Positions 3,467 to 56,083 of a DNA stretch of 64,000 nt are shown piece by piece. The stretch is taken from contig NC_091931.1 of the NCBI RefSeq assembly GCF_041260155.1, forward strand, positions 10,149,861 to 10,213,860. Direction: 5' to 3'. The number at the start of each line of letters is the position of its first letter. The stretch's first letter is position 1. Below the pieces are notes generated by a model, which saw nothing but the letters and a program-made list of their open reading frames with translations, ran no database searches and was not told where the DNA came from. This DNA is from Ptychodera flava. Taxonomy: Eukaryota > Hemichordata > Enteropneusta > Ptychoderidae. The translations under genes were made by a program, and so were the position numbers.

Positions 3467-3600
3467 AGTCTTCCATGTTGTTCCAGGGCTTTGCAAAAAT
3501 GCCGGACTGCGTCGGGGGAACAACTGTGAGTGCGAACCCACGAGTTTTCAAATTTCCAATTTTGAAGAGAACGAAGTATCCACCCAACTAAGCCGGCGTT
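3467..3600 (-). mobile_element. tRNA-derived SINE copy 1
   Basis: On the minus strand it reads an A-box-like GGCTTAGTTGGGTGG, then GATACTTCGT, and a B-box-like GTGGGTTCGCACTC at tRNA-like spacing enlarged by an AT-rich insert. The tail carries TTCCCCCGACG and CCGGCATTTTT. A second copy lies 1 kb away at 4443-4600. Pol III promoter boxes with a conserved non-tRNA tail indicate a SINE rather than a functional tRNA. Confidence 0.6.
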
Positions 3601-4442: not shown

Positions 4443-4600
4443 TTAGTCTTCCACGTTTAGTTCATGGCCAGTAAAAATGCCGGATAGCGTCGGGGGAACT
4501 GGGTGTGAGGCTCGAGCCTGAACTCGATGCTCACGGGTTTTTTCAAATTTTATTATTTTTTAAGAGCACGAAGTATCCACCCGACTGAGCCGACACTTTC
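4443..4600 (-). mobile_element. tRNA-derived SINE copy 2
   Basis: It has the same layout as the copy at 3467-3600. The A box reads GGCTCAGTCGGGTGG. The B box is weaker (GAGTTCAGGCTCG). The shared tail (TTCCCCCGACGC, CCGGCATTTTTA, GTGGAAGACTA) defines the family. Both copies face the same way. Confidence 0.6.
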
Positions 4601-15957: not shown

Positions 15958-18900
15958 GGAAAGCTGACATGTTGTTGATAAAAAATTCCTGTTAAGCAGT
16001 GTCTTCTATGCCACATATACAACTTTATCAGTGAGAATTTACTTCATCTTTGGTCAGCCAGAAATTATGTACAGAAATTGGTATAGATATTGGTTACATA
16101 AGTATGAGTCACATGTTCATGGGTTAGGGTCACCATAGGTCAAATAGAATAGTGGTAGTCATAAGACATGACAGAAAAGTCCAGAACAATAGAATGTCAC
16201 TCTCTCAGCATTCTTACAATGTAGAAATCACAGGTAAACTGTGAATCTTAAAATGTATAGGTCTTTTCATTACTCTTTTCAATTTTATGAATAGTTGAGT
16301 GTGACCTAAAACAAGGAATTAAGAAAACATATGTCTTGGCCAGTACAGAAATGAAAAACAGGATTCCATCACCACAATGATTTGCAAAATAACCTTGTAT
16401 GGTAGCCAGATAGTCACAATTTGATGTGAAGAAAGAATTTTTCAAATCTAATTACCTGCAGCTGTAAAGCATTTATTTCTTCTGCATCAACACCACATCT
16501 TGCCAGTTATCATTTGCTGCTCAAGCAATACACAAAATTCCAAGCTGCCTATGAAGCAGCTGCTAATTTACTTTATAAATATTTGGACATCATCAGCCAA
16601 ATATTCTAGATAAAGTCAATAACGGCCATACCAGTAAGTTATTAAAAGGAGGATCTTTTTAGTCACAGGTATGACCATCGTTTAAATACAGCTCAATCAA
16701 TCCTGCTATTGATGTTAATAGATTAATCTGTTATTGAATGACAATCGAGTTGATTTTCACCACTAGAAGAGTCTCTGTACATTGGGGGTCAGGGGGTTGG
16801 GGGAGGGGGTTGGTGTTAATCTTGAAGCACATATAATGTTTACAAAGCTAATTAGATCATCACAACTATGCACAGGTAACATTCTAACTGAGGTAACATT
16901 CATATGTGAATGGTATTTTAATGCCTTGGAGGGTATACTTTCTTTCCATGTTGTTTTAGCTAGTGCATGAATCATTCTGCTTTTTTCGGAAATACTCCTG
17001 CATACTTGGTTATCACATAGTAAGCAGTCTTTAGATGGAATGCTCAATGAACTTTTGCATAAAATGGAGAATGGAAGATATACTGGGTGGTGTAACCAAA
17101 CTAAATCAAATCAAAATTGTATTACTTGATAAATCAATAGACCCAATTGTTAAAAGTGTTTCAGGGGTTCACACAGCAGCTCTCATTTCCTACAGAGTTC
17201 TGCTTGCTCTGTTATTCTTGAAAGTATTTTTTTCCGCCATCAGCATGGAGTGCCATGTCTACATGGCTGTAGAATGAGTAAAGACAACAATTATAAGTGC
17301 AAAGGATTGATCTAAAAAAGGGTCTCAGTGTAAAAGAGGGAATCTCACAAAAATGTTAAACAATTAGCCATAAATTTATCAACTGATGGCTTTCTTTGAA
17401 AGAGAAATTTATTCCAACATCAATAACATATTCACAGTTATAAGAAAGCCGGGCAGCTCCAGAGATGCATCCGGACGATGTGAACCTCACTAACTCGTTG
17501 AGGGCGCTCTTATGGTCGCCACCATAAGTGCAGTTTGTGCGGACGTCAGTAAACACTAATGGCATTAGTATAATACTGCTCATTTCCTGCACCAGTTTGT
17601 TTTCAGTCAGTAAACATCGAGGTTACGGTAAGCTAGCGTAAATTATGACAGTACTGAATTTGAAGTGAACATTAGTCACAACAATCTTATATCCGTTTTT
17701 ATCACCGATGAGAAACCCATCGAACGTACATCAAAACGGGTTCCATAGAGCAGGTGCACAAACAGAGAATGCTCTCTTTCCATATGTCTTGTTTTATTTA
17801 ATTTTCCAATCGGTGGTGGGGGCACCAAAAATTGTCAAGCATCTCGACGAAGGCCGGAAGAAGTAGAGATGCTAGACTAATCAGATAGTATTTTATTTTT
17901 TAATGCTGAAAGCATTCCTGATAGTGAGAGATATCAGAAGTCTTCAACTGTATCAAGCATGACGTCACCTTGAAAGTTTGTATAAATTTAAAAGATAGCA
18001 TAACCACTCAACTTTGGGACGATGCAGGCAATACAAAATTTACAATATTATGAACAATAATCAGCAATTTCACAATCTTTCACGACAACAATTACCTCAT
18101 ACAAGCTTGCAAACAAAGCGAACGTAATTACCCAGGTGTGGTCTGGCATGGTCCTCCTATCTCTCCATAGCAGGGTAATTAGGACCGTTCCACCTCATGA
18201 TCTATGAATTAATCTCTCGCGACATGTTGGCTGATTAATTTCATCTTCCGATAAATAAGGTCAGCACGATAAGTGATTAGACAGTGTTTATGGACTGATA
18301 ACAGCAGTGCATGGTTAAGGGACGTCGACCAATACTTTATAGCAAATATCTGTCTGTCATAAATGTAGAATGTAGAAGATTGAAAAGGGAAATCATGCAT
18401 GGACCTTTTCTACTAATCCCTGTGGTCAAATCGGCCACAAGTGGGGACCTCACTCTTACCGGCATTTCCAACAATTCTTCATTCAATATTTTTTGTGCTA
18501 CACGAAGTAACATAATGAATGGTTTAGAATTGAAAGACGCAACAGAGGCTTGTAAGAGGAAACACCAGGAATTCAAGTTCGTCTTGACCAGTTGGTGGGA
18601 CTAAAGTCACCCTTCAATAATTTGTCCAAATGTGGCAACTTTGGGCTTTGATCATTATGATCATGGATGCTTGTTTAAACTTTGTGTTAAACTATTGAGA
18701 AATTGCTCGACTCTTGTGACCATAGAGTAGAACTCAAACAAGAACTGTTTTATAGTAGTCGTCGAGATAAAATAGAATCCGATTCTACACCATGTTTTAG
18801 CCTAATAGGGAAACCAACAGCCATCACACACAGACACACACATACATTGTATATAGAGAGGCGAAACAGCAAATTGAGAACAGTAGAGCATTGACGGGGG

Positions 18901-19625: not shown

Positions 19626-22339
19626 CTAATCGACAATGTCCATCGATCCTCTGCTGAAATTATCTTGTAAAATTACACCACTTACTGTACTGACTCTACA
19701 TTCACGCAAGTCGAGATCAAAGTTTCCGAAATCATCGTATATCAAATTTGCCCTACCTAATTCTGATATCTCACCATTGTTCAAAGTATTACCTGTTAAT
19801 GTCACTTTTCGCAGTCTGATGGAGTCTGCCTTTGCCAAACAGAGGCCTTTGATCATTGGATGGGGCTCGACATCATGGGTACTACGATCTGAGGGTAAGC
19901 ACTTGCCCAAACTAACATATTCAAGCTTTGTGAATAGCTTTTTCCATGCAGCTTCCCACATCTCAGGATTGCTGTGTTTCCCTGGGAATCTCCATCCAGA
20001 AATAGCCAACGAATCTAAATGTTTCATGTTGCAAATAACATCTACAAATTCTTGAAATCGATTCAAACTTACGTAGTCATTATTATCTCCTATCGGATGG
20101 TTCATACGTAGGCTCACTATCTTAGTATTCTTGAGCTTTTTACAGAAATCAATGTAATCGCATTGAGACATATTACAACGGTTGATTTGGACACACATTT
20201 CTACGTCGGAGAGATTTACATACTGCACAAGGGAGTCTTCGTAGGGTTTGAAATCGGAACCCTGAAATATGAATTGGCATTGGCTATCAGCATAAAGAGC
20301 TGGATCGTAAGTGCTGCTCATGTGAACACCGAAATTCTTCCAAAAAGAGAAACCCAGAGACATATGCTTTCCTACCTTTTCTCGCCAAAAACAATCTATG
20401 AACGTTGGCAGACACATGTCATGCCCATGAATGGCAAATATTTCAAGCGATCCTATTTTTTTCCGGTCGCGAAAAAGGCTGTGAAGTACTGATGCTTCTA
20501 CCAAGCAGCATGTGATACTTAGAGTGTTGATTAGTTTACCAACACCGCATTCGTCAATTAAAGAAAACAATTGAGCAAAATCTTCCGATCTCGTAGTGGA
20601 GACACATTCTGAACTGCGAACATCCGTTTTAGCTACCGATATTGTTTTACCGGTATTTTCCTCGTCATTTTGGGGGCACCTTGTCAGTTTGGGTGCATTC
20701 TTGGTTAGGTTGTCAGAGTAGGTGTTTTCAAAAGTAATTGAAAGGCTAAGAGGTATTTCTTTTGATTTTAAAATTTGCAAAAGAAGCTTAAAATTGGCGA
20801 GACATTCACCCCGCTGAGCTTTCAAAGATAAATCCAAAGGACGTGGCTTGAAAGGTAAGGTCGACAGTAGCCGTTCAATTATATCCTTCATAAGAGTCTG
20901 CTCTGCATCAAGGGAAACAGTGATATTCCTGTCCCACTTGATATACTTGACTGCAGATCTTATCAGATTCTCGGTGGCGTCGGTTTCCATGAGGCATTGC
21001 GATACGAATTCCAGGTCATTAAACTGAAAGAAGTTGAATATTAAATAGGACTTTTGATTCAAATGTCCTGCAAGAAATCGGAATAGTGTCTGACATTCTG
21101 AGGTCGTCATACGGACAGAAAATCTCTTCGCTATTGTCTCTACGTTTTCAGGTTCTGTCTCGCTGAAAGAAGCTATGTACTTCGCGGCAAAGAATTCCTG
21201 AAAGGTCTTATGGTGGATTACAAACGAAGCTCTTGGATCCGAAGAGAGTAGTCTACTATCCAAATATCTAGTTAGAAATCCCATTCTCAGAATGTCTTCG
21301 TTTTCTTGTAAATGAAGATCGGATTTGTCAAATTTTACTCTGTCAGCAAGAAAGATATCGACGGCGAGTTTACCAAGAAAAATAAATTGCCTGTCAACGT
21401 CCTCAATTGTGATTTGACGTTCGTCATATTTCTCACGGTACCGTTTCACAATCAACTGTAATATTCTGTCATACAGTGGTGTGATTTTTATCAGCATACT
21501 ACCAGACGCTGCCCATACATCACACATGAGTAGAGCGTTCATAGGACATGCCATCAATGATAAGATTGTTTGTTTATTTTCAGACATTTCAATTTGTTGG
21601 ATAAGTTTCCCTGCATCTTCTTGTGTCTGTTCAGTTGCAACGAAATGCCTGTGGATGAAGTCTTTCAGCGACGATGGTGAGAAACCGCGAATGGATAAAA
21701 GCCTATCAAAGTGGGCACGACTTTTGCGTAAGGCAGCAGCCTGAGCATTTTCATTATTGTCATCAGCATGAATTTTTCTCGATGTTAACAGCACTTTACA
21801 GTGCCGCAAAATTCTACCCTCAAGTAACTTTCCAATGTCATCGTTTGCGGAACATATCATCTCGTCCCATCCATCTAACAACAACACTATTTTGTCTTGG
21901 TTTCTCCTTACAAACTCCATCAAACTGCTCCTATCTATTTGGCAGTCTTTCGGTAACAAGTTTTCAAAGATAAAATCTTCTAACTTACCCTGACATTGCC
22001 GTAGATTGAAAAGGAAAACCAATCTGTAATCTCGAAAAGTTTCAACTCTGTCTCTTGCCCAGTCATAAGCAAGTTTTAAACAAAACGTTGATTTTCCATA
22101 GCCCGGGTCTCCTTCTAAAAGTATACGTCTAGGGTTATCGCAGTCAATGTTTGCATTGAAAAGTTCATTTCTTTCAAAGTCATGACTCCCCTTCCGGGTT
22201 TCAAGTTCAAGTTCGGTATACACATCATCAAGCTGTAAGGAGTTTTCCCACCATGATAATGGCTGTATGCGAGAAAGTACTTTCTTGTACATTTCACGAA
22301 GAATGTCCTCGCATTTGCTGGCTGCATCGTCCAGAGGAT
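19626..22339 (-). CDS. NLR-type NACHT domain protein (large NACHT exon, 5' exon missing)
   Basis: One open exon reads from an acceptor (TGTATTTCAG, exon base 22339) to a stop at 19626: 15 codons upstream of the first Met (22292), then 888 residues. Numbered from that Met, it shows Walker A GDPGYGKST (61-69), Walker B IVLLLDGWDE (135-144) and the sensor-like VLLTSRK (about 167-173), followed by the helical winged region typical of NACHT proteins. No clear leucine-rich repeats are visible in the C-terminal half. NACHT proteins are STAND NTPases that oligomerise on ligand sensing and signal through an N-terminal death-fold or other effector domain. That domain should be encoded by an upstream exon, because this exon starts with the last two bases of a codon, so 22292 is not the true start. 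I could not identify the exon at higher coordinates. The reading frame is intact throughout what is seen. Confidence 0.85.
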
Positions 22340-24500
22340 CTGAAATACAGTTTTGAACTCATTGAAGAGCATAACAAGTGCTGTTGCTGTGACAGTGAGG
22401 GAAATGGGGTCATCACTGTACCTTGCTAGGTAAAATATAAAAATAACATTTCTGTTTTGAAGCATATTCCTGGGATAAAAAAAATGACATTACACCAAAA
22501 GAACTCACATAAATAGTGGAAAGTTAGTTCTGCGAGGCACAGCTGTGTGGCGATAGGCCTCCCACCTCCGCAGCCCTGCTGACTGCCCCGGGTTGGGGGC
22601 CTATCGCTGGTAACACACGACCTTTCAATGCGCTGCTATATGTATGGCAAACTTTACATATTATGGCATTAGCTATTTGAAAGAGAGTGCTTGATGCAGT
22701 ATTCAATTAATTCAGGCAATAAACATTCTGCTAGTAGGTTACTCTGCTATATTCCACATACGGAGCTCTGTCACCAAGGCTGTAATTTGATGGCCACAGA
22801 AGGGGAAATTATAAGAAAGAAGTGGTGTAGGAAGGGGGAAGTACCAAGTATGGGAGACAATGCTGGTACGAGTACACCGCCGTGGAAAGGTTTCAAAAAT
22901 CTACCGAAGGCTGCGCTCACAAAAAGAAACGGTGATGGGGGATTCGAAAATTTTGGGGGTAGTTGAGGGGGACCTCGAAAGTTTTGCTCTACCTATAGGG
23001 GGACCTGAAAATTTTTTGGTTCCCTTTTACTTTTTACATTTTCCGATTCCAAGTTTTGGTAGATAATTCAATAAAAATGAATACCGTTATTATGTCATCC
23101 AATTGTTCTAATGTCAGTAATAATAAAACAAAATCTAGAACCATTTTTGTCATTTCATGACTTTTATCTCGAAAACATCTAAACATGTATGATTTGTCGT
23201 AAAAAACAAACTTGGGCCTAGTAACAGAGCACAAGCTGCAAATGTTGATGATTTTTGCAATATCGCTATGTCAACTACAGTTTCTTCCTGTCTCCCTACA
23301 GCATGCTGAAACACACAATATTCACTTTGTCGACAAAGCCTGTATATATATTAATATGTATTGGGTGATAATTTAATTAGAGTCCAGACTGACGGTCAGT
23401 TGTCAGTGATACAAATGCGGGGTACATATACACAGGCTGTGTTGGCAAGCAACATGCTGTAGGGAGTAGAACAAGAACGCAGTCGTATAAACTGAACAAA
23501 ATATTGTCAAAATTATCAAAGTTAATACAGCGACTCCTACGGGCAGTGTCACTATCAGGTACTGCCCTGCTACTGCAGTGTCACTGTCACTGCATACCTG
23601 AGCATTGACAGAGATAGCTCTGACCCTGATGTTGTAGATGACAGAGTTTGGGTCAAATGACGCTCTTGACAGTGAAACATACTTGTACACAAGATCAGGC
23701 CAGAGAACAACACATGGAAGACACAGAGACTTGAGCAGTTATCTGGGCTATTTGAATTCTGGCATACGAGAATAATCAAATATTAAAGAAAAAAGATGGG
23801 GTCACCATGGTTGATTTTCTAAATTTTCACATTCTAATCATAAAATAAATACAAAAGTAAAACTTTGAACAGCAAAGACTAATTTGAATGAAAAAATATT
23901 ACTAAATGGAATTATTTATTTTTGGCATTATTACACCCAAACTTTAGAGATTAAAACATTTATTCATGGAATATTTTAACCTTCCAGTATTGTTAATTTT
24001 GAGCAGCATCTGAGTCATATATGTCGTGTACTTTGAAACAAATATTTGGTAGTTCACTGTGCTCAGTTTTTCAATTTATTTTTACAATATAACAATTAGC
24101 CAGGTATTCAGAATTTGCCTACACTCTCATGATCGTCATTATGTGTGCTCTTCAGCAGGAGACATTGAGTTGGATTAACTCAAGTCGGCTTAGACTGATA
24201 TCCAAAAAGTTCACTGATGAGTTTAAAATGAATCAGTCTAAGAACTTGCCTTAGGAACATGACTTTACAAACTGCTAATAACAGGTAGTGTTGAACATCT
24301 GCGAGCAGAACTGCACGATACGTGTGTGCAATGGCGCAATCTGAGAGGTGTTTCAATTTATTTCGCACAAAATATGGAGTGACCCTTTTTTCCTCTCGAC
24401 ATTTTGAGCAACCCCTCCCTTAAAGTTTTCAATTTTTTGAGTGACCCCCTCACATTCCTCCGACCCCTAGGCCGTAAATAATGACTGCTTCCTCAATATG
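22340..24500. other. No coding exon recognised upstream of the NACHT exon
   Basis: This is where the NLR's N-terminal exon would be expected. Apart from the MITE at 23282-23476 and G/C-run stretches near 22935-23030 and 24380-24490 (degenerate ends of the G-run family), nothing with death-fold or other effector-domain character is visible on the minus strand. Confidence 0.4.
23282..23476. mobile_element. Palindromic MITE, CTACTCCC family
   Basis: The left part (CTGTCTCCCTACAGCATGCT) and right part (AGCATGTTGC inverted; GCTGTAGGGAGTAGAAC) are inverted copies, with inner CACAGGCTGTGTTGG / AAAGCCTGTATAT blocks. About 195 bp, non-coding. Confidence 0.7.
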
Positions 24501-24519
24501 AATTGGGGTCCCTTTAATA

Positions 24520-26297
24520 GCGTTCAGTTATTATGGCCGGGGGTGGGCCGGCAAAATCCAGGGGGGGGTCACCTCAAATTTGAAAACTGCAAAGGGGGGG
24601 GGTCATGTATTTTTCAAACAGCTCAGAGGGGGGTCACTTAATTTTCATAAGTATCCGTCCTGTCAAAAAGCAGTTTCAGTGTTCAGAAATATTCTGGGAG
24701 ATAAAAATGATTCGTTGCATGATTTCATTCTCTGAAGTTATTCACCTGTAAATCTGAACAAAAGTATAATTATCTGTCACATGAACATCTTGACTTGACA
24801 ACTCTGAGGCTTGTCTTATTGTAAATCAAGCTCACTGCACTGAGGGCAATGAACAATTCCTATTACTTACATATTAGAGATATAGCAAGTTTTGTCAGGG
24901 AAATTATTTAACAGTTACCTGTACTGAGACTACTAGTACCATGAAAAGTTAAATAATACTTCTAGGTGAAATTCCAATATCATAATTGTTGTCCACATCT
25001 GAACTTTTAAATACCCTATTTGAATCAAGTACATTTGTATCAATTATCAAACACCTATAAAAGCACAAATTAATTTAGTTTAGCATTGTAAAAAGATTAT
25101 TCTTAGTTTTCTCATAGATTCCAGTGTATAGTGAATCAGCATTTCGGTGAAATTCCAAAATCTAATTTCTTGCACACATATCAACCTTTAACCATCCTAG
25201 GCTAACTAAGTACTTTAAAATGAATTATCAAATGCCTATAAATACACAGATTTTGATAGTTTTGTATTGGAAAAAAATTATTCATATTTTCCTCATAGAC
25301 TCCCATATACAGTGAATCTACATTTTGGTATAATTCCAAAATCCAATTTCTGGCGAACACATCCTTTTGTTACCACCCTAATCTAATCAAGTACATTGAT
25401 ATCAATAATCGAGAGTACATAAATACATGGGTTTACCTATTTTTGTATTGGAAAAAAATTATTCATACTTTCCTCATAGACTCCCATGTATAGTGGATGA
25501 ACATTTTCAGTGAAATTCCATGATCAGATTTCTTGTACACATAATATGCACCTTTAACCATCATATTCTAATCAAGTACAATTATGTTAATTATTGAACG
25601 TCTGTATATGCACAAGTATACCAAGTTTTTAATTGGAAAAAAATTATTCACAATTTTATCATTGACTCCCATGTATAGTGGATGAACATTTTTGGTGAAA
25701 TTCAAAGGTCAAACTTTTTGTCCACATGCCAGTTGTAACAGCCCTATTTCATTTAAGTACATTTATGTAAATTATCAAATATCTATGAATGCATAGATAT
25801 AGTTTTGCATTGAGAAAGTATTACATAGATTCCTCATACATGTATGAGAAAATATTTGTATACCATGTATAGTGAATCAACATTATCAACAGCTGATTTT
25901 TAATTAAATCCAAATATCAAATATGTACACACACGCTTGCGCAAAAATATTGCGATCCACCAGTAATTTCTGTCCAACCCCTTTGAGGGGTAATTTCAAA
26001 ATTATAACAAGTCAGAATGGGAAATCTGAGCATTGACACCTTTTGAGTTTGTAAGGAAGGTCATTTGAAAAAATCTAAACTCTTTTGGGGGGATTCTATC
26101 GCTCCATACCCTGAGGTGCTTGTGTGTGCAGCTAATTTACTCAAGCAATGGGGGGGGGGGGGTCATGAAATTTTTGTCATCTTGAAAGGGGGGGTCATAA
26201 ATTTTTTGGTACAATGGGTAGGGGGGGGTTCACTTATTTTGACTGATGCGCAGGAAGAATTTGCCGGCCCACCCCCGGCCATAATAACTGAACGCTC
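24520..26297 (+). mobile_element. G-run terminal-inverted-repeat element 1 (1.8 kb) with internal 180-bp satellite
   Basis: Its ends, GCGTTCAGTTATTATGGCCG and CGGCCATAATAACTGAACGC, are perfect inverted copies extending inward through GGGGGTGGGCCGGCAAA. Just inside each end lie three (G)6-13TCA motifs about 35 bp apart, and all are on the plus strand at both ends. The centre (about 24957-25900) consists of five to six tandem units of about 180 bp. No transposase frame is present. A GGGA-type end and TTA-like flanks in related copies hint at PIF/Harbinger, by inference. Confidence 0.75.
24957..25900. repeat. 180-bp tandem repeats inside G-run element 1
   Basis: Units start near 24957, 25133, 25314, 25493, 25678 and 25870. 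Each has GTGAAATTCCAAAATC-like, AATCAAGTACATTT-like, TTGGAAAAAAATTATTCA-like and GACTCCCATGTATAGTG-like blocks. Divergence among units is substantial, so the array is not young. Confidence 0.75.
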
Positions 26298-26300
26298 CCT

Positions 26301-26888
26301 AGGGACCGTTCAGTTTTTACGGCCGGGGGGCCGGCAAAATCCAGGGGGGGGTCATCGTAATTTTGGAGTCCGCAAGGGGGGGGGTCATCGCTTTTTCACT
26401 GGTAGGAAAGGGGGGGGGGGGTCACCACATTTTTAAAAACATAATACCAACAATAAAGTTCACTTTATGCCATGGCCATGATCGACCCTCTTTACCGGCG
26501 GGCCGCCTTTGGCGAACCACTCCAATAAAGTTTACTTTATACAATGTCCATGGACATGAGTTGTCTATGGAAATGAAGTTAAAAATTGCCTTACAGTCGT
26601 CCTAATTAACAGACGTTTCAATTGATGTGGCTGAGAAGTTTGTGCACTGGCATCTCTGCTACACGAATAAAGTGCGCCGCGTACCGGAGTTCAAATCCAA
26701 ACCATGCGGGTAAATTTGACATATGGGTTTTGGTTATTTTTCATGGGGGGGTCATCATTTTTTTTGTCTGACAAGGGGGGGGTCATCTTTTTTTCACAAA
26801 AATGCAGGGGGGTCTATATTTTTTTGAACACCAGCGACAAGATTTTGCCGCCCCCCCCCCCCAGGCCGTAAAAACTGAACGCTCCCCC
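26301..26888 (+). mobile_element. G-run terminal-inverted-repeat element 2 (0.6 kb)
   Basis: The left end GGGACCGTTCAGTTTTTACG and right end CGTAAAAACTGAACGCTCCC are inverted copies. Inside each end lie two or three (G)7-13TC[AT] motifs, all on the plus strand. It directly abuts element 1 with only TA between the two termini, so one inserted at the edge of the other. Confidence 0.75.
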
Positions 26889-27062
26889 TTACTGAACAAA
26901 GCCGCATATCTGTCCTGGATATCTGTAAACTCTATCTTAGTAAGGCGCAGCTGTAACCATTAAAATCCAACAAGGAAACTTCCATCACGTGCATAGCCTT
27001 ATTTGATTCACATCTTGTACCTTACCTTAATGTAAATTTGATAATTTTGGCAGTATTTCAGC

Positions 27063-27290
27063 AAGGTTCTTGTTCTATTCCTTCTAGCATAATTAATTGT
27101 TCAGTATTCAGCCAGTCAACACGGCCTCAGTGTGTTTGTGTACTGTCCATTTGCATCCTAGACAAATGAATTTCAGTCTGTACTCTCAGTCAATCGTCAA
27201 CAATAGTGTATACTTATACAGACCTTGTTGACAAGATGAATATAATGTGTTTCAGCATATGTAGGGTGACAGCAAGAAACTGTAGGCGAT
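27063..27290. mobile_element. Palindromic MITE, CTACTCCC family, diverged copy
   Basis: Ends CTTGTTCTATTCCTTCTAG and GTAGGGTGACAGCAAGAA; inner CAGTATTCAGCCAGTCAAC and GTTGACAAGATGAATA; centre near CTAGACAAATGAATTTCAG. Confidence 0.65.
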
Positions 27291-27782
27291 ACATTGAATA
27301 GAAATATTGAAAAAAAATCAACAGTTGCAGCTTCTGTCTCCTGTCAAATGTTGTAATTGTTTTTTAATGAAAATTTCATACTATTTTAGATTTTTTCGAA
27401 ATAAAAGTCATGAAATGATATACAATAATTTCAGAGTTTAACTATTATTTATATTAGAGCCATCGGATGACACAACAATATTATACAGTGGCTGTCATTT
27501 TTTATTACATTGATACATATCAAACTGTGGATTCTAACACAGACACAGACAAGTATATATTATATATATAACACTGCTGGTGGACAGAATTGTGCCCGAG
27601 GTTATCGTTCGCCCAGTTAAAGCGATGAAACTCGTTTCTTCGCTTCGATAAAGCGTGTATGTGCGATGTATGATATTGAGCATGCGTGCGTGAGTGCTTC
27701 ACGAAATCTACAACGTGTTGAGCGGTCTCAGTCAGAAAAATGTAACAACTTAGCCGGCTATTGAACCACTCTTTTTTGGGAG

Positions 27783-27875
27783 TGGAGATTTAGCCAAGTG
27801 GTTCTGTCTGTGGCCTCTCAGCTAGGCGACTGATGCCGTATGTTGTGGGTTCGAATCCGATTGAAAACTATCCGT
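27783..27875 (+). mobile_element. tRNA-like SINE head or tRNA pseudogene
   Basis: A box TAGCCAAGTGG (27791-27801) and B box GGTTCGAATCC (27848-27858) are at the spacing of a long-variable-arm tRNA (Leu/Ser type). The sequence after the B box does not pair with the 5' end, so there is no acceptor stem. It is followed at once by a (TA)n run. Confidence 0.55.
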
Positions 27876-27884
27876 ATATTATAT

Positions 27885-27896
<12 letters not shown>

Positions 27897-27966
<70 letters not shown>
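27897..27966. repeat. (TA)n microsatellite
   Basis: A continuous TA run of about 70 bp at the 3' side of the tRNA-like sequence. Confidence 0.97.
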
Positions 27967-27969
<3 letters not shown>

Positions 27970-28664
27970 GCGGATGAATATCTTTGCTCAAGTGTACTGA
28001 TCTGCAGCTGGTTGAGATTTTGTTTATTGCCTTGGTAATGTTGACAAAACTTTTCGCCCTAAAAGTAGGACTTAATAAGATGAAAAGATGCCTACAAACG
28101 GAGATACAGCTAAAGAAAACAGAACAAAATAAGACTAGTGTCCATCTTTATCAAAATGTTGAACATATTTTACAAACTGAATGAATTACCATTTCTTATA
28201 GAGTGTGACGAGTCTTACCGTTTATGTGTGGCGCGGAATTTAAATTTAGCCACAGTCTCCTTGTTTGAGATTTAGCAGAGTTTGTGACTCTTTGGTATGA
28301 CTAGCGTACCTTTCTCAAGTTATAACACCGGCGGCAGTGGAAAAGCATAGACTACTACGCATGTCCGAATAGCAAATTACAAAAGAGTAGTCACGTTTTG
28401 CAGCAATGTAGAAATTAGTTTAGCATGCTTGAAGAGTCATATCATTTAGTCCGTTTGGTGCTTAGGGACTGGTCAGTTTCTTCGGCCGGGGGGGGGGGGG
28501 GGGGGCGGTGGATTATTTTTTGCCAACGTCAAAAAGTGGCTGACCCCCCCTATTCCAAATTTTGAAAACAGGGTGACCCCCCTATTCCAAATTTTGAAAA
28601 CAGGGTGACCCCCCCGCACGCGACAACTGTAATATGTAATAATATAATACTGTAAATATATATG

Positions 28665-28667
<3 letters not shown>

Positions 28668-28737
<70 letters not shown>
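28668..28737. repeat. (TA)n microsatellite
   Basis: A continuous TA run inside G-run element 3. Confidence 0.97.
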
Positions 28738-28739
<2 letters not shown>

Positions 28740-29209
28740 ACATACATTTATATTTTAACAGTCATTCTGTGTTTTAATGAAATTGTTGGCATGTCAGTTG
28801 TAAGATACGAATTTCAAAGTGTCAATCTTAAAGTTTGAATACAGTACATTTTGAATGAGCTGTGAATGTATTTCACACTTTCTATGCTTAACCAGATGTA
28901 CTGAACTGTTGTACAGAAATGGATGTCAATCATTAATATTAAACAGGAAAAAGCAGTAAATCAAAAACTTTGATGGGTGTTAAGACTTGCCAGCCATCAA
29001 ATTAAATCTCCTGAGTAACCATAGAGAGGCATTTTAGCCAAATCTGATGTGTGCAGAGTCTGAGATGACCTTTTCTTGGAACATTGATATTTGTGCATGT
29101 TGCTTTCTCATACTGAATTCTCATAGAGAGAACAGAAAAGTATCAGGAATTTGTCATGCTTTTCATATGAAATGCAGATTTCATAATAGTACACTTTCAC
29201 TTAGCAAAC

Positions 29210-29500
29210 ATCAAGATATCTCTGGCATATATTTCTGATTTATTAAAGTATGGCGCCCGAAGGGCGCGGAGAAAAATATGAAACATCCTGATATCTCTGA
29301 TATATATGTCTTGTATATTAAAGTAATGCACAGGAAGGGTGTGCTGAAAATGTCTGATATATTAAGTAATGCGCTCAAAGAGCACGCTGAAAAATATTGA
29401 ACATACATATATCTCTGATATATGTATGCCTGATATGTTAAAGTTGGGCTTGCTGAAAATTATGTCTGATTATTAGTTACGCGCCCGAAGGGCGCGCCGC
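29210..29500. repeat. Irregular tandem repeat with GCGCCCGAAGGGCGC hairpins, inside G-run element 3
   Basis: Four to five units of about 60-80 bp carry ATATCTCTGATATAT, a TTAAAGTAATG-like block and a small palindrome, best preserved as GCGCCCGAAGGGCGC (29251, 29480). Confidence 0.7.
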
Positions 29501-29826
29501 AAAATGCAACTAGATAAAATTTGTGGCTGACACGATGCATTTTAGGCAATGATGAGCCTGTGTCGAAATTCAAAAACACACTGACCCCCCCTATTGGGCA
29601 TTTTAAAAACATGGTGACCCCCCCTATCACCAAAGTCAAAAACAGGGTGACCCCCCCCCCCATGAATCCACCGGCCCCCCCCCCCCCAGGCTGAAGAAAC
29701 TGACCAGTCCCTTAGTCCCGCCTCTTAATATCCAGTGACCCTCAGGTGTTTGCTAATCTATGGACGATTGCCTTGTATTAGGCAGAGTGCTGTGAGGTTC
29801 ACATACGCACGGTGAATAAGCTACTA

Positions 29827-35400: not shown

Positions 35401-37681
35401 AAGTTTTGGCTCTGTTGAACCATCTCCTATGTCATCGCAAGCATCATTTCCATTATCACTATCAGGTGTGTCTACGGTAAGTGCATTCATGATAGCTCAG
35501 GTACTTTGATTCCATAGGGCTGTATTTTATGGGATGTGGGTATAATGCCAGTATTAGGTTTATGGGATATGGGTATAATGCCAGTATTAGGTTTATGGGA
35601 TATGGGTATAATGCCAGTATTAGGTTTATGGGATGTGGGTATAATGCCAGTATTAGGTTTATGGGATGTGGGTATAATGCCAGTATTAGGTTTATGGGAT
35701 GTGGATATAATGCCAGTATTAGGTTTATGGGATGTGGGTGGTATTAGGTGGAGCTTCTGTGCCTTTCCAGTACTGTGTTTATTCAAAGAACTTACCATTG
35801 TGCATTCAAATTTTACACGCAAGGCATCTGTTTCAACAAAGTTTACCATACATTTAATGTAACGCTACAGCTTAGATAGCAAAGTATATAATGTGGTGCA
35901 TAGTTTATTTTCTGTCGACAACAGTGTGGTTAAATATAAAGTATACTTGTTCTCCAGGGAAATATTATTCAAACTCTCACTGTCACAATAGTTATCAAAG
36001 TCACATAAAATCTAGTTAGCTCTTACAAAAGAAATCTGTAGCCTGTTTCAATGAGATGCTATATATATTCAGCAGTTTATGTTTTCTTAATGCTTCACAG
36101 CTTTCCAGTATAAGAAGCAACAAAAGCTCTTCAATAGAGTATGTTCATGAGGAGCAGGGAAAAACTGAAGATTTGGTAGATGGGAAGGAGGACAGAGACA
36201 ATGATGCAGATGATATTTTTGAGGCAGATGAAGATCAAAATTCTGACTGTGAAGAGACAACCTGCACTGACAAGGTGAGGAATAAGCAAGAATGGGCTTG
36301 TCATTGAGTTTCAAATTCAAATCGTTAGTACTGTGAATGATCTTCCCATTTGATGTTCCAGCATTTTCCTTGCACTTCATTAACGTGACTGAAAAATTCA
36401 TATCGTATCACACAAACATTTAAGTTCTCCACTCTTTTTGACTTTGCAAAAGAAAGTTGATTATCAAAGCTTGCAAAACTTACATTGGTTAATTTTCAAC
36501 AGACACTTCCAAACTGTATCCTGTCGCAATGTTCGGAAAAATGGGTATAACTAACTATTTTGGTAAGAATGGTAGCTGCTTAGCTGTAGTGAGAAGAACT
36601 TGGTGTCATTTACAAGAAAAAACCATAGTAACTCAAAGTCAGCAGCATCTATACATCTCGGAGTATTGTTTGTCTTAAGTAGAAACCTTTCTCATTGAAG
36701 TTTTTGAAACATATAAGAAAAAGGGTTTAATACAACACAGGAGGAATCTATTATGAAAACGCAAGAATCTTTTACAAATTGTACCACTGGTTTTGGCAAT
36801 GAGTATTGCACTCTATTGCACTCTACCATTGCTGCATCATATACAACAGATTGAAATTCAGCAGTGTATTCGAGATTTGCTGGTAGTCCTCATTCCATCA
36901 CATTATCTGTTGGCCAATTTGAATTGCTTCAGCTTGATGGATTTTTAAACACAATGCACTTTACAGGTCGATGACAACTTGTTTGAATCAAAGGAATCAT
37001 GTGCTCAGCCACAGCAAAAAGTGATCTCACACCTGTTCAGAAGGATCACACCTGAAAAGAATGAAGCAACCAAAGCTAATTCCCAAAGAAGGTATGTACC
37101 GTGAATATGCATGCACTTATCATTGACAGTGTCTACGTCTGTACATCACCTTCACTCTACAAACACAAAGTGATGTATAGGGTTAAAATCAATCCTTTCA
37201 TCACCCACAAGTATGTGTGTTACAATCTCATTGTTTTCAATAGGATTAATGGATCCATATGCTAGGAGTTGTGGGTGAGAGGGTTAAGGAGGTGGATTTT
37301 CAAAAATATTGATACGCAGAATTCATTATTTAGCTAGGAGAAAAAAATTAACCTGTACTATCTGTATTTGTTAATCAAGATGATAATCAGTAAGAAATTA
37401 CACTCTTGAGATAGGGGTGCTGAAATACACAAAAGCTGTACACACTCAAATTGTTGCAAAGAAAACGCTTATACTAAGTGCAATACTTATTGTTAAATGT
37501 ATATCGGTATGGCAGGCTCTGAAAAGTTTGTCAAAAGTGATCGACATCCAATCAGTGTGTGAAATAATTCTATCTGATAATCAGTATACAAACTTTATAT
37601 TTCAGAGTGTTGGCTAGTTGCTCAGTTGAAGGAGAAGCAAACTTCAGTCAACTTTTTACAGATGATGGCATTTTTCTATAG
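32484..37681 (+). CDS. Unrecognised 795-aa nuclear protein with N-terminal HMG-box-like domain (6 coding exons)
   Basis: Coding exons are 32484-32704, 33373-33591, 33904-35476, 36101-36274, 36967-37091 and 37606-37681. All have GT-AG borders and their phases join exactly (2388 nt, 795 codons plus stop). Residues 18-70 look like a divergent HMG box: basic start, REYYKMFLNKER helix, LTPQQIARRVKSTWQAM helix, then a KKKK run. HMG boxes bind and bend DNA or chromatin. The long third exon encodes a low-complexity, Ser/Thr- and Lys-rich region with a RRSPRIK motif, followed by an acidic stretch (exon 4, rich in Asp/Glu) and a short C-terminus ending FSQLFTDDGIFL. The pattern suggests a chromatin or chromosome-cycle protein, and RRSPR-type motifs occur in cohesin regulators such as sororin, but I do not recognise an orthologue. 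The 5' end of coding exon 1 carries untranslated sequence from acceptor 32464. Candidate poly(A) signals lie at 38664 and 38821. Confidence 0.75.
35526..35746. repeat. 33-bp minisatellite in an intron of the HMG-box-like gene
   Basis: About seven near-identical 33-bp units (core TTTATGGGATGTGGGTATAA) lie 50 bp downstream of the donor at 35477. Because 33 is divisible by 3 and the unit has few stops, several frames stay open on both strands, giving false ORFs of 72-120 residues. Confidence 0.9.
37190..37287. mobile_element. TTAA MITE, CACCCACAA subfamily
   Basis: CCTTTCATCACCCACAA pairs with TTGTGGGTGAGAGGGTTAA. The centre TCAATAGGATTAATGGATC resembles the copy at 61531-61620. It lies in the last intron of the HMG-box-like gene. 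Confidence 0.65.
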
Positions 37682-53200: not shown

Positions 53201-56083
53201 AAAAACATGAATTATATGAACACCTCTGTTAAATAGAATAAGGATTGCATTGCACTATATTGGTAGTTGTCAATGCTCATACTATGTACATTGTAAATTT
53301 CAAAGAGCTTTATTTCATGAAATATACCGGTATGTACTTTAGATTACAAAAAGACACCGATTCTTTGGACTCAGGTAGCTTCAGACATTACATGTACCAT
53401 ACAGTACTGTATTTACAGTATACACATTACAACTTACAGTTGGCAGTTTCACCATGGCTAGTCAGCTGTATGGCATGTGCTTGGTTTTTGATGTAAATGT
53501 GTGCCTCAAAGAAGATTGCCGGTAGGTAGCACTGCAGGCAGAGAACAACCACTAGGTAAAAGCCTACCAAAATAAAGCGTTTCTGAGACACTTGTCAAAG
53601 CTAGAGCCATAAGTGTTTGTGTATTGGGTTTTGCTGGAGTCAAATTCAAACCTTCAAAATTGATTTGTTTCTCAGTGACCAAAGTAGCCTTCTTTTTCAA
53701 TGCATGACATTCATTCTGATTGTCTATTTTTATTGTTTGCAGACCTAAAGAGGCTTCTCATGAAAACCATGAGAGTGGGATCAACCAAATGATTGCAAAA
53801 TACCATGGAGAGGCTAACAGAGTTACAGAGAAACACTCATCAAGGGTTAGTGAGAGACATCCAGGAATGGACCCGGTGACACATTGGACAGGGTACAGCA
53901 GTGTTCATCCCAGTGACAGAGACCAGAGTGGTGAGGGAAGGTGGGCACATGTTGTGGTGAAGACAGAGCCACAAGACGCAGAGGAGTACCAACCTGATGA
54001 TGCACTTGAATCCGAAGGGTGTGACTCTGACACAGATGATGAACAGATCATTCACGATGACTCTGGGAGACACCAAGGAATGGAAGCCGAGGAAAGAGTA
54101 CAGGAAGCAGGCACCCTTATTCTGCATTGTTTTGATGGTGAGACTGCAGAAAGTTGCGATGATAATGCTACAGACACTGCAGATGAAGAAGACACATATG
54201 CTGATGATATTAACAATAGTACGACAACAAGTTCAGATTTCAACAGTGAGCACTGGGGCAATTTTCAGGAATATAACACAGAACAAATTACTGAGCGTGA
54301 CAGTGCTGGAAAAGCTACTAATTCTGTCAATATTGGACGAGATGGTGTGTCTAACAAAACAGGACCAGTTAGTAGGTCTGATAATATCGCTCTAGGACAG
54401 GTGCATGTAAGTGTACCTGACAACACAAAGCAAGTAAGTCAGTCTGGCAATATACATGTAACACAAGTTAGAAAGTCTGACAACATGGGGCTGGTGCATG
54501 TAAGTAAGTCTGATAACGTAGGACAAGTTCCTAAGTCTGATAACGTAGGACAAGTTCCTAAGTCTGATCATGTAGGAAAAGTTCCTAAGTCTGATAATAT
54601 AGCACAAGTTCCTAAGTCTGATAATATAGCACAAGTTCCTAAGTCTGATAATGTAGGACAAGTTCCTAAGTCTGATATTGTAGGACAAGTTCCTAAGTCT
54701 GATCATGTAGGACAAGTTCCTAAGTCTGGTAATGTAGGACAAGTAATTTTATTGAAATCTGACAATTTGGCGCAAGTTAGTAAGTCTGATGGTAAAGGAC
54801 AAATTAACAAGTCTGACAATATTGGACAGGTAATTTTATTGAAATCTGACAACTTGGTGCAAGTTAGTAAATCTGGCAATACAGGACAAGGGACTCAGTC
54901 TGGCAATATGGGACAGATAATTTTAATTAAGCCTAACAACACAGGTCAAGTTCAAATGTCTGGCAATATAGGTCAAGATAAAAAGTCTGACAACATAGGG
55001 CAGATGCATGTAAGACAGTCTGACAATATAGGACAGGTTGTTAAGCCTGACAGCATGGGACACTTACCGGTAATTGTGATTAAGCCTGACAACATAGGGC
55101 AAGCTAATAAATCTGATGATGTAGGACAAGTCTCTAAGCCTGGCAGTAAACAAAATGTGATTGTAATTAAGCCTAACTACATAGGGCAAGTTGGTAAGTC
55201 TGGCAGTACAGGACATTTTAATAAATTTGTCAATTTAGTGCAAGTTAATCAGTCTGCTCGAAAAGCCAATCCGCCAATGGTCTCTAAACGTAAGCCGCCT
55301 CTGGTGTGTTCAAAGTGTGGGTATGTGGCTAGCCACAAGCTTACACTGATGCGACACAAGGCCAAGCACTACCCAACCAGATTCAAGTGCCACCTGTGTG
55401 AGTACGCCACTCACATTGAGTACCTGCTGGAAAATCACATCCGGAGGTGCCACACTGCGCACTCGGATAAGCTGTTCATCTGCGCCTGGAAGGACTGCAA
55501 CAGGAGATTTGCCATGGAAGTCGACCTCAAGGTCCACTCCCGGGTGCACGAACAGGACTCCATGTGTCACATCTGCGGGAAGAAGGGCAGCATCAACTTC
55601 CTGGTGGGACACTTGGCCAGAGAGCATGGAGTGCGGAAAGGCAGCGAAGACAAGGAGACTGTGAAGTGTAAGCTGTGCGGCAAAGAGTATTCCTCCAAGA
55701 GTCAAATGTCCTTCAAACAACACATGATGAAACACAACAATGAGAAACCGTTCAAGTGTCGCTTCTGCAGCAAAGGATTCGTGAGCACCAACTTCCTGCT
55801 GGCCCACGAGAGAATCCACACGGGTGAGAAGCCGTACAAGTGCCAGATTTGTAAGTTGGCCTTCGCCAAGGACGCGCAGCTCATCTCACACGTCAGGACG
55901 CACACCGGGGAGAAGCCATACAAGTGTAAACAATGCAGCTATGCGAGTACTTGGAATATACAGCTTAGGCAACATGTCAAGGCGCACGGAGCTGCCACTG
56001 AGGTCTCGTGTATGACATGCGACATTTCCTTCATCAGTGAGAAAGCATTGAAAATCCACTATAGGAAACATCATACTTCTTAG
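47207..56083 (+). CDS. C2H2 zinc-finger protein with AT-hook-like N-terminus and 9-residue repeats (3 exons, 898 aa)
   Basis: Exons are 47207-47469 (donor GT|GTAAGT), 53028-53120 (CTAG|GTGAGG) and 53743-56083. All junctions are phase 2 and sum to 2697 nt. Exon 1 encodes KRGRGRPRKSE (AT-hook-like GRGRPRK), a basic stretch and an amphipathic block ending DEFADFLLELLDVELQK. Residues about 205-290 are acidic. Residues about 338-621 are repeats on the pattern KSDNVGQVP, nine of them consecutive and almost identical, then diverging with ILLKSDN and VIKPDN variants. Residues about 640-895 hold nine C2H2 fingers. Fingers 6-8 are joined by TGEKP linkers, which indicates sequence-specific DNA binding. 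Finger 3 has C-x4-C spacing. The protein is probably a nuclear transcription regulator with an unknown target, and I do not recognise a named orthologue. A candidate poly(A) signal lies at 59513. The 5.6-kb intron 1 is rich in transposon-derived repeats. Confidence 0.87.
48112..48625. mobile_element. Foldback element with CCAGACA ends, copy 1, right end lost
   Basis: The left part GGGTCCAGACATTTCACACC, ACCAGGTCACCCCATAC and CACCTCGTCCC match 50992-51190. The right part (GGGCGAAGTGGCA, GGGGCGAAATGG) matches 51563-51600 in the same direction and is inverse to the left part. It is interrupted at its right by the TTAGCTCACGTG hairpin element. Confidence 0.65.
49446..50350. repeat. Tandem array, about 148-bp units
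   Basis: Unit starts (TTTGCATATTTAATGAAC-like) fall near 49446, 49597, 49741, 49974, 50119 and 50267. The one long interval (49741 to 49974) is explained by a 92-bp TTAA MITE at 49769-49860; without it the spacing returns to about 140 bp. Confidence 0.8.
49769..49860. mobile_element. TTAA MITE, 92-bp subfamily, inserted into the tandem array
   Basis: It begins TTAACCCTTTCACCACCGTG and ends GTTAACAGGTTA. The body matches the inverted copy at 52801-52892. Confidence 0.8.
50992..51735. mobile_element. Foldback element with CCAGACA ends, copy 2
   Basis: The left GGGTTCCAGACACTTTGCAC pairs with the right GTGAACTGTCTGGCAGG, and GGTCATGTTCCCC / TGTGACTTGGTTTTAAT and CACCTCATCCCA / GGGACAAAGAAG blocks are inversely arranged. 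The unpaired centre (about 51200-51450) has no convincing gene. Confidence 0.65.
52461..52804. mobile_element. TTAAGGTAGAATG-type MITE, full-length copy (344 bp)
   Basis: Left end TTAAGGTAGTATGCGC, right end GCACACTCTAACTTAA. The internal TACCGTGCAAG, TAGAGAAACATG and ATGAGCCCTCA blocks match the partial copies at 5587 and 40333. It shares its right TTAA with the next MITE. Confidence 0.75.
52801..52892. mobile_element. TTAA MITE, 92-bp subfamily, complete
   Basis: TTAACCTGTTCACC at the left and GGTGAAAGGGTTAA at the right are inverted copies at 12 of 14 positions. An inner palindrome, ACCATTGAAAACAATGGT, lies at the centre. Confidence 0.85.
54510..54745 (+). repeat. 27-bp coding minisatellite in the zinc-finger gene
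   Basis: Nine consecutive units encode KSDNVGQVP-like nonapeptides with only a few substitutions (N/H/I, V/I, G/A, Q/K). Flanking sequence out to about 55250 carries older, diverged units. The close identity suggests recent slippage or unequal exchange, so copy number is probably variable between individuals. Confidence 0.85.

Follow-up and report, generated by a model that had tools for sequence, protein, structure and literature searches.

Why would a transposon with mirrored tips carry subterminal repeats that face the same way at both of its ends? The question is raised by a 64,000-nucleotide stretch of the Ptychodera flava genome (contig NC_091931.1, positions 10,149,861 to 10,213,860 of the forward strand; hereafter the window). 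It contains three elements, A, B and C, each with inverted tips and each with an array of three G-rich units inside either tip. We found that all of the units of an element point in one direction. The copies considered here are those within the 64-kb window. In the PIF/Harbinger superfamily, to which the anatomy of these elements points, recognition of the ends is shared by two proteins and is poorly known, and same-direction G-rich arrays may mean that the moving enzyme meets two unlike ends. The reading that we develop below, and to which we give roughly even chances, is that A, B and C are Harbinger-like miniature inverted-repeat transposable elements (MITEs), that their units dock the DNA-binding partner of the transposase, that their ends are inequivalent, and that the layout arose from an array opened by interior DNA.

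Tips, units and arrays

The tips of each element are inverted copies of about 40 bp. Within an element, the first 23 bases of the two tips agree at 20/23 positions in A and at 22/23 in both B and C, which bears out an earlier note on this DNA that had described a transposon family with opposed inverted tips. Between elements, tip identity over the same 23 bases was 12-21/23. The tip alignment scores for A, B and C were 75, 53 and 62 in the inverted orientation versus 12, 12 and 10 in the direct orientation. The left tip of A starts with AATA, and the right tip of A has GGGA at the same place.

The flanks of the three elements differ in how well a target-site duplication is preserved. C is bordered by a perfect TTA on both sides, with CTTA before the element and TTAG after it. 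On the left flank of A, a TTA at 24514-24516 overlaps the altered left tip, and the duplication of A is uncertain. B has TA on its left and CC, then TTA, on its right; its duplication is imperfect. A and B lie head to tail in the same direction, two bases apart, and the junction between them is TA.

Exactly three units lie inside the tip at each of the six ends (Table 1), in elements that range from 585 to 1784 bp. All 18 units are forward and none is reverse, with C read on the minus strand. The earlier note had claimed that arrays of G-runs followed by TCA face the same way at both ends, and this held for every unit; the unit is sharper than had been noted, with five bases and a T-run after the TCA and a fixed spacing. 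The core is a run of at least six G followed by TCA in 16 units, by TTCA in one and by TCT in one. Successive TCAs are 30-37 bp apart (mean 32.8; 12 intervals). Between a TCA and the following G-run lie 20-23 nt (standard deviation 1.0; 12 intervals), despite G-run lengths of 6 to 13. At positions 6, 7, 8 and 9 after the TCA, T is present in 16, 17, 18 and 17 of the 18 units, and TTTT occupies a fixed place in 17/18, compared to a mean of 2.0 and a maximum of 9 in 5000 shuffles. The unit can thus be described as a composite motif of constant internal spacing: 6-13 G, TCA, five bases of any kind, four or more T, and about 12 variable bases. A strict three-unit pattern matched 4/6 ends and never appeared when the window was dinucleotide-shuffled 100 times. 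Unit counts and array alignments were run on B and C taken one base shorter at one tip, which did not affect the unit counts.

The left and right arrays of an element are related directly and not as mirror images. Array alignment scores for A, B and C were 43, 52 and 87 in the direct orientation versus 13, 15 and 14 in the inverted orientation. We repeated the array alignments with the G-runs trimmed to three and with 500 mononucleotide shuffles as controls. The direct match was clear for B (39, compared to a shuffle maximum of 22) and for C (70, compared to 23). The G-rich strand is the plus strand in A and B and the minus strand in C; thus, the polarity belongs to the element and not to a strand of the genome. 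Linkers outside the motif were little alike between elements (mean score 3.8 versus 2.8 for shuffled linkers), as expected if the motif, rather than the whole repeat, is kept. Linkers within C were more alike, and two neighboring units in the window-left array of C have identical 24-nt linkers, indicating recent repeat turnover. The same-direction layout is firm as a description. The agreement in direction gives thin statistics, because A, B and C look related and may share one ancestor; their common layout may be one inherited event.

Table 1. Positions of elements A, B and C, of their parts and of candidate D in the window
Feature	Positions	Strand	Details
Element A, non-autonomous	24516..26299	+	1784 bp; G-rich strand +; 3+3 units forward
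A left tip (inverted repeat)	24516..24557	+	BLAST: 97.5% over 40 bp vs reverse complement of A right tip
A left array	24561..24636	+	units start 24561, 24594, 24628
A right array	26150..26232	+	units start 26150, 26188, 26221; last unit TTCA
A right tip	26257..26299	-	BLAST
Element B, non-autonomous	26302..26886	+	585 bp; G-rich strand +; 3+3 units forward
B left tip	26302..26341	+	BLAST and tip comparison
B left array	26344..26424	+	units start 26344, 26376, 26410
B right array	26745..26815	+	units start 26745, 26775, 26807; last unit TCT
B right tip	26841..26886	-	includes C12 run; BLAST and tip comparison
Element C, non-autonomous	28465..29711	-	1247 bp; G-rich strand -; 3+3 units one way
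TTA target-site duplication of C, left copy	28462..28464	.	flank inspection
C window-left tip	28465..28514	+	G18 run at 28488-28505; BLAST, G-quadruplex pattern scan, tip comparison
C array, window-left side	28541..28615	-	cores 28541-28550, 28574-28582, 28606-28615
C array, window-right side	29582..29661	-	cores 29582-29591, 29615-29624, 29648-29661
C window-right tip	29665..29711	-	BLAST: 88% over 51 bp to other C tip, inverted
TTA target-site duplication of C, right copy	29712..29714	.	flank inspection
Candidate D, possible decayed solo end	24366..24493	-	tip-like sequence; of its three G-rich units, two keep TCA

The ends of the three elements recognize one another in model searches. Tip and array models were trained without one element and then tested on that element. 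The array models recovered the arrays of the left-out element with E-values of 1e-5 to 1e-13. The tip models gave E 1e-5 to 1e-10 for the tips of A and of B, but those of C were weak by this test (E 0.03 and 0.12). Weak E-values from these models mean little, because the models are of low complexity and also match the reversed window (array model, E 0.0009; tip model, E 0.13). BLAST joins the tips of C to those of B at E 5e-5 and 1.7e-5.

The interiors of A, B and C had no mutual similarity above that of shuffled controls (30 shuffles each). Within these controls the interiors are unrelated, so the ends persist while the interiors change. The interior of A contains a 181-bp tandem repeat at 24965-25703 (to about 25884) with approximately four to five copies and 74% matches. 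In the interior of C there is a long run of TA, and there are 75-bp repeats that include GCGCCCGAAGGGCGC-like palindromes (28656-28736 and 29206-29505). The longest open reading frame overlapping the elements (129 amino acids) spans arrays and crosses the A/B junction. Scans for tRNAs and for Rfam families gave no match on the elements.

Candidate D (Table 1) had strong scores with the first models, but these scores were circular because D sat in the training set. When it was left out of training, D scored E 0.21 with the tip model and E 0.53 with the array model, and BLAST with the ends of A, B and C did not report it. We do not regard D as an established fourth end; it is a weak candidate and is outside all totals.

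Two other arrangements are found near the elements. Three units lie at 22935-23016, each about 20 nt long and spaced 31 and 31 (GGGGGACCTCGAAAGTTTT type); their plan resembles that of the arrays, a G-run and then a T-run, but with a different middle. No inverted tips were found around these units, and they matched the leave-one-out array models weakly (E 0.12 and 0.41). They are perhaps a decayed or sister family. In addition, A and B are flanked by an inverted pair (23150-23417 and 27148-27418) that is 75% identical over about 281 aligned positions.

Superfamily and comparison with known elements

Judged by anatomy, A, B and C appear to be non-autonomous PIF/Harbinger-like MITEs of one family, in agreement with the assignment suggested in the earlier note. 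Like MITEs in general, they are short (585-1784 bp), non-coding and bounded by inverted tips. MITEs also typically reach high copy numbers and have a uniform interior; here there are three copies in 64 kb, with interiors that differ between them. Harbinger elements make 3-bp duplications and have tips of 25-50 bp (PMC9179366; here and below, statements about cited papers refer to the portions of the texts available to us). Their duplication has the form TWA. That of C is a clean TTA, whereas at A and B a TTA is close by but slightly defective in its placement. The tips, at about 40-50 bp, are inside the Harbinger range, and they begin with GGG at 5/6 ends. The motif G(N)5GTT, used as a criterion in mining Medicago for Harbinger elements (PMC2213677) and hence a criterion from plants, is present in three of the six tips (the right tip of A and both tips of B).

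It is also possible, with a small chance, that elements of this anatomy belong to a different superfamily, such as Kolobok or some other element that inserts at TTA or TTAA. The GGG...CCC tips agree with the rule for Kolobok that elements start with a purine and end with a pyrimidine (PMC9587614), and no transposase was seen by Pfam in the reading frames tested in the elements and the window. However, the duplication of Kolobok is TTAA (PMC9587614), and the flanks of C (CTTA and TTAG) repeat 3 bp only. A 4-bp TTAA reading does not fit C, because only TTA repeats in its flanks.

The elements resemble Tourist-like MITEs of the PIF/Harbinger superfamily in the TTA duplication (of C), the GGG tips of about 40 bp, the G(N)5GTT motif in half of the tips and the lack of visible coding capacity. 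They differ from these MITEs in having same-direction arrays of three G/T units at both ends. A parallel in layout is the Medicago MtPH-A6-4 group of PIF/Harbinger elements, which have subterminal tandem repeats, sometimes at both ends, and variable interiors (PMC2213677). The repeats of MtPH-A6-4 are 60 bp, number 2-35 per element and are in opposite orientation when they are at both ends, whereas the units of A, B and C are about 33 bp, number three per end and have the same orientation (PMC2213677).

Arrays of subterminal motifs are also known from other superfamilies. CACTA elements (En/Spm, and Tgmt* of soybean) have subterminal arrays whose motifs combine a GC-rich and an AT-rich half, bind TNPA-like proteins and differ between the two ends, but they have CACTA tips, motifs in both direct and inverted copies, and unequal numbers of motifs per end (PMC2613891). 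The hAT elements Hermes and Herves have multiple short subterminal sites and inequivalent ends, but they have other tips, belong to another superfamily and use sites of 4-8 bp rather than a fixed 33-bp repeat (PMC10368747, PMC3143072). Muta1, a Mutator-like element of Aedes, has a terminal motif followed by subterminal tandem repeats, and its derivatives can keep these ends around foreign interiors. In contrast to A, B and C, the repeats of Muta1 are inside a 145-bp inverted repeat and are hence mirrored, and its duplications are 8-9 bp (PMC5225508). The view in the earlier note that a normal element would have mirrored arrays is overstated, given the asymmetric ends of hAT and CACTA elements (PMC10368747, PMC2613891), but it does apply to the Medicago Harbinger subfamily, in which the two arrays have opposite orientation (PMC2213677).

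MITEs with subterminal repeats are known, and the new aspect here is the same-direction triple arrays inside inverted tips. Full-text literature searches (including the accessible text of PMC2872659, PMC11707139, PMC4423477 and PMC3260210), with subscription papers and Repbase largely outside their reach, found no Harbinger element with this arrangement; it may well be recorded elsewhere. Strings of the unit motif occur in 50 papers, and in the 20 of these that were listed they seemed to be primers or promoters, judging by titles and abstracts.

Possible role and origin of the arrays

We suggest that the two parts of each end have different jobs. The outer inverted tip, about 40 bp, would be the place where the transposase cuts, and the inner block of three polar units would contain the sites at which the transposase's DNA-binding partner docks. 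This partner would be a Myb-like ORF1 protein provided by an autonomous relative elsewhere. A docked protein would then point toward the tip at one end and away from it at the other. That is, the ends would be inequivalent because the blocks have the same direction while the tips are mirrored, and inequivalent ends would allow a correct left-right pairing to be distinguished from a wrong pairing. If the layout holds genome-wide, it would be a clean natural test of whether ends are told apart by which way their accessory sites point as well as by how many there are.

Strand-specific protein docking seems to be the likeliest role of the units. By analogy with the arrays of CACTA and hAT elements, the fixed composite unit suggests such a role. 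Motif arrays in CACTA elements are bound by TNPA-like proteins (PMC2613891), and Hermes has an asymmetric motif layout together with functional asymmetry (PMC10368747). Within the Harbinger superfamily itself, excision of mPing needs a Myb-like ORF1 protein plus a separate transposase, and ORF1 has been suggested to bind the ends (PMC2836001).

The layout probably originated when interior DNA opened a single tandem array lying between two tips, as can result from incomplete repair of the gap left by excision. This is the simplest history. If the layout holds genome-wide, it would also point to a simple route to MITEs with constant ends and changing interiors. A further notion, speculative and in our estimate unlikely, is that same-direction triple docking arrays provide both left/right identity and direct homology for gap repair. 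A lost interior would be rejoined array to array, and each abortive repair would yield a short element that is complete and mobile and has either a new interior or none.

Several observations weigh against the combination of a Harbinger assignment, docking and an opened array. mPing and mPong were reported to have no common internal sequence that promotes transposition, and the authors favor a role that is not sequence-specific, at least in the part of that paper available (PMC9921582); this weighs against subterminal docking as a general rule in the superfamily. The match between the left and right arrays of A was marginal with trimmed G-runs (28, compared to a shuffle maximum of 27). Conservation of the unit may partly reflect copying, given the repeat turnover in C, and the three copies, being related, may represent a single event. 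The duplications of A and B are imperfect, and G(N)5GTT fails in 3/6 tips: both tips of C, which have GGT at that place, and the left tip of A, the start of which is mutated. Lastly, no transposase or ORF1 of this family was seen; Pfam found no transposase in 10 of the 34 open reading frames of at least 50 amino acids that overlap 24516-29711. It likewise found no transposase in 10 frames mostly elsewhere in the window.

It is possible, if somewhat unlikely, that the array was split without ever having a function at the ends. A tip-array-tip MITE would have been interrupted by captured DNA, and the two halves of the array would be carried passively. The arrays on the two sides of an element are related in direct orientation; this is clearest in C (direct score 87; 70 with trimmed G-runs), which also has the two identical neighboring units. 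In the accessible text on MtPH-A6-4 of Medicago, subterminal tandem repeats can fill nearly the whole interior, and abortive gap repair is invoked (PMC2213677). On the other side, the Medicago elements with repeats at both ends have them in opposite orientation (PMC2213677), and a passive array would not need exactly three units at 6/6 ends, nor a constant spacing within the unit in elements that have diverged. Both of these features could, however, stem from common descent.

A composite origin appears quite improbable. Two short elements in the same direction would have been moved jointly by their outer tips, which would leave an array at each end with host DNA in between. A and B, two bases apart and head to tail, are a plausible precursor of such a composite, and the interiors of the elements are unrelated. 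However, the remnants of inner tips that a composite predicts at the inner edges of the arrays were above the 99% shuffle level in only 1/12 tests. That one, in B inside L3, had a score of 17 compared to a level of 16 and a shuffle maximum of 18, which is about what chance gives in 12 tries.

The proposal in the earlier note that the G-rich strand works through G-quadruplexes, fork stalling or R-loops is very unlikely: one strand does carry G-runs of 6-13 at both ends, and a four-run pattern appears at 4/6 ends if loops of up to 30 nt are allowed (some counting the tip run), but the canonical pattern (four G3+ runs, loops of 1-7) is present in none of the six arrays, also with loops of up to 12, the linkers of 20-23 nt plus TCA make long loops, and a quadruplex has no use for the T-run and the TCA, both of which are tightly conserved. 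The only canonical match within the elements is the G18 run in the tip of C; elsewhere in the window there is a match at 16784-16809. The related claim that one strand of each copy is marked by the G-arrays does not hold cleanly, because the inverted tip runs put G-runs on both strands; at one end the tip G-run is on the strand opposite to that of the array.

Pattern scans outside the window and other features within it

Scans with the exact tip patterns gave no matches in viral contigs in two scans and two matches in another. Both of these were in unrelated phage-like sequence without units, and we rejected them as copies. A scan with a two-unit pattern gave no matches. A three-unit G5TCA pattern was found in 17 stretches in viral contigs and in at least 117 in bacterial and archaeal genomes. 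No tip-like sequence was found across these 134 three-unit stretches, with 80 of the 117 from bacteria and archaea listed. On inspection, the 25 stretches with the most AT-rich linkers were taken as probably unrelated short tandem repeats rather than relatives. Two stretches, L058 and L134, are superficially like the arrays of A, B and C in having AT-rich linkers.

The window contains several other features; its NACHT, TMEM70 and C2H2 zinc-finger frames and its vault RNA matches point to eukaryotic, most likely animal, DNA. Beside the elements, at 19626-22358 on the minus strand, is an NLR-like gene with an open frame of 910 residues and a NACHT domain (Pfam E 5e-21). Two matches to vault RNA, both above the Rfam gathering score, are at 3495-3599 and 4473-4596 on the minus strand. 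A reading frame for TMEM70 was identified by Pfam. A 33-bp tandem repeat with 6.5 copies and 97% matches lies at 35526-35739, and a C2H2 zinc-finger frame at 53720-56083 contains 27-bp coding repeats at 54505-55005.

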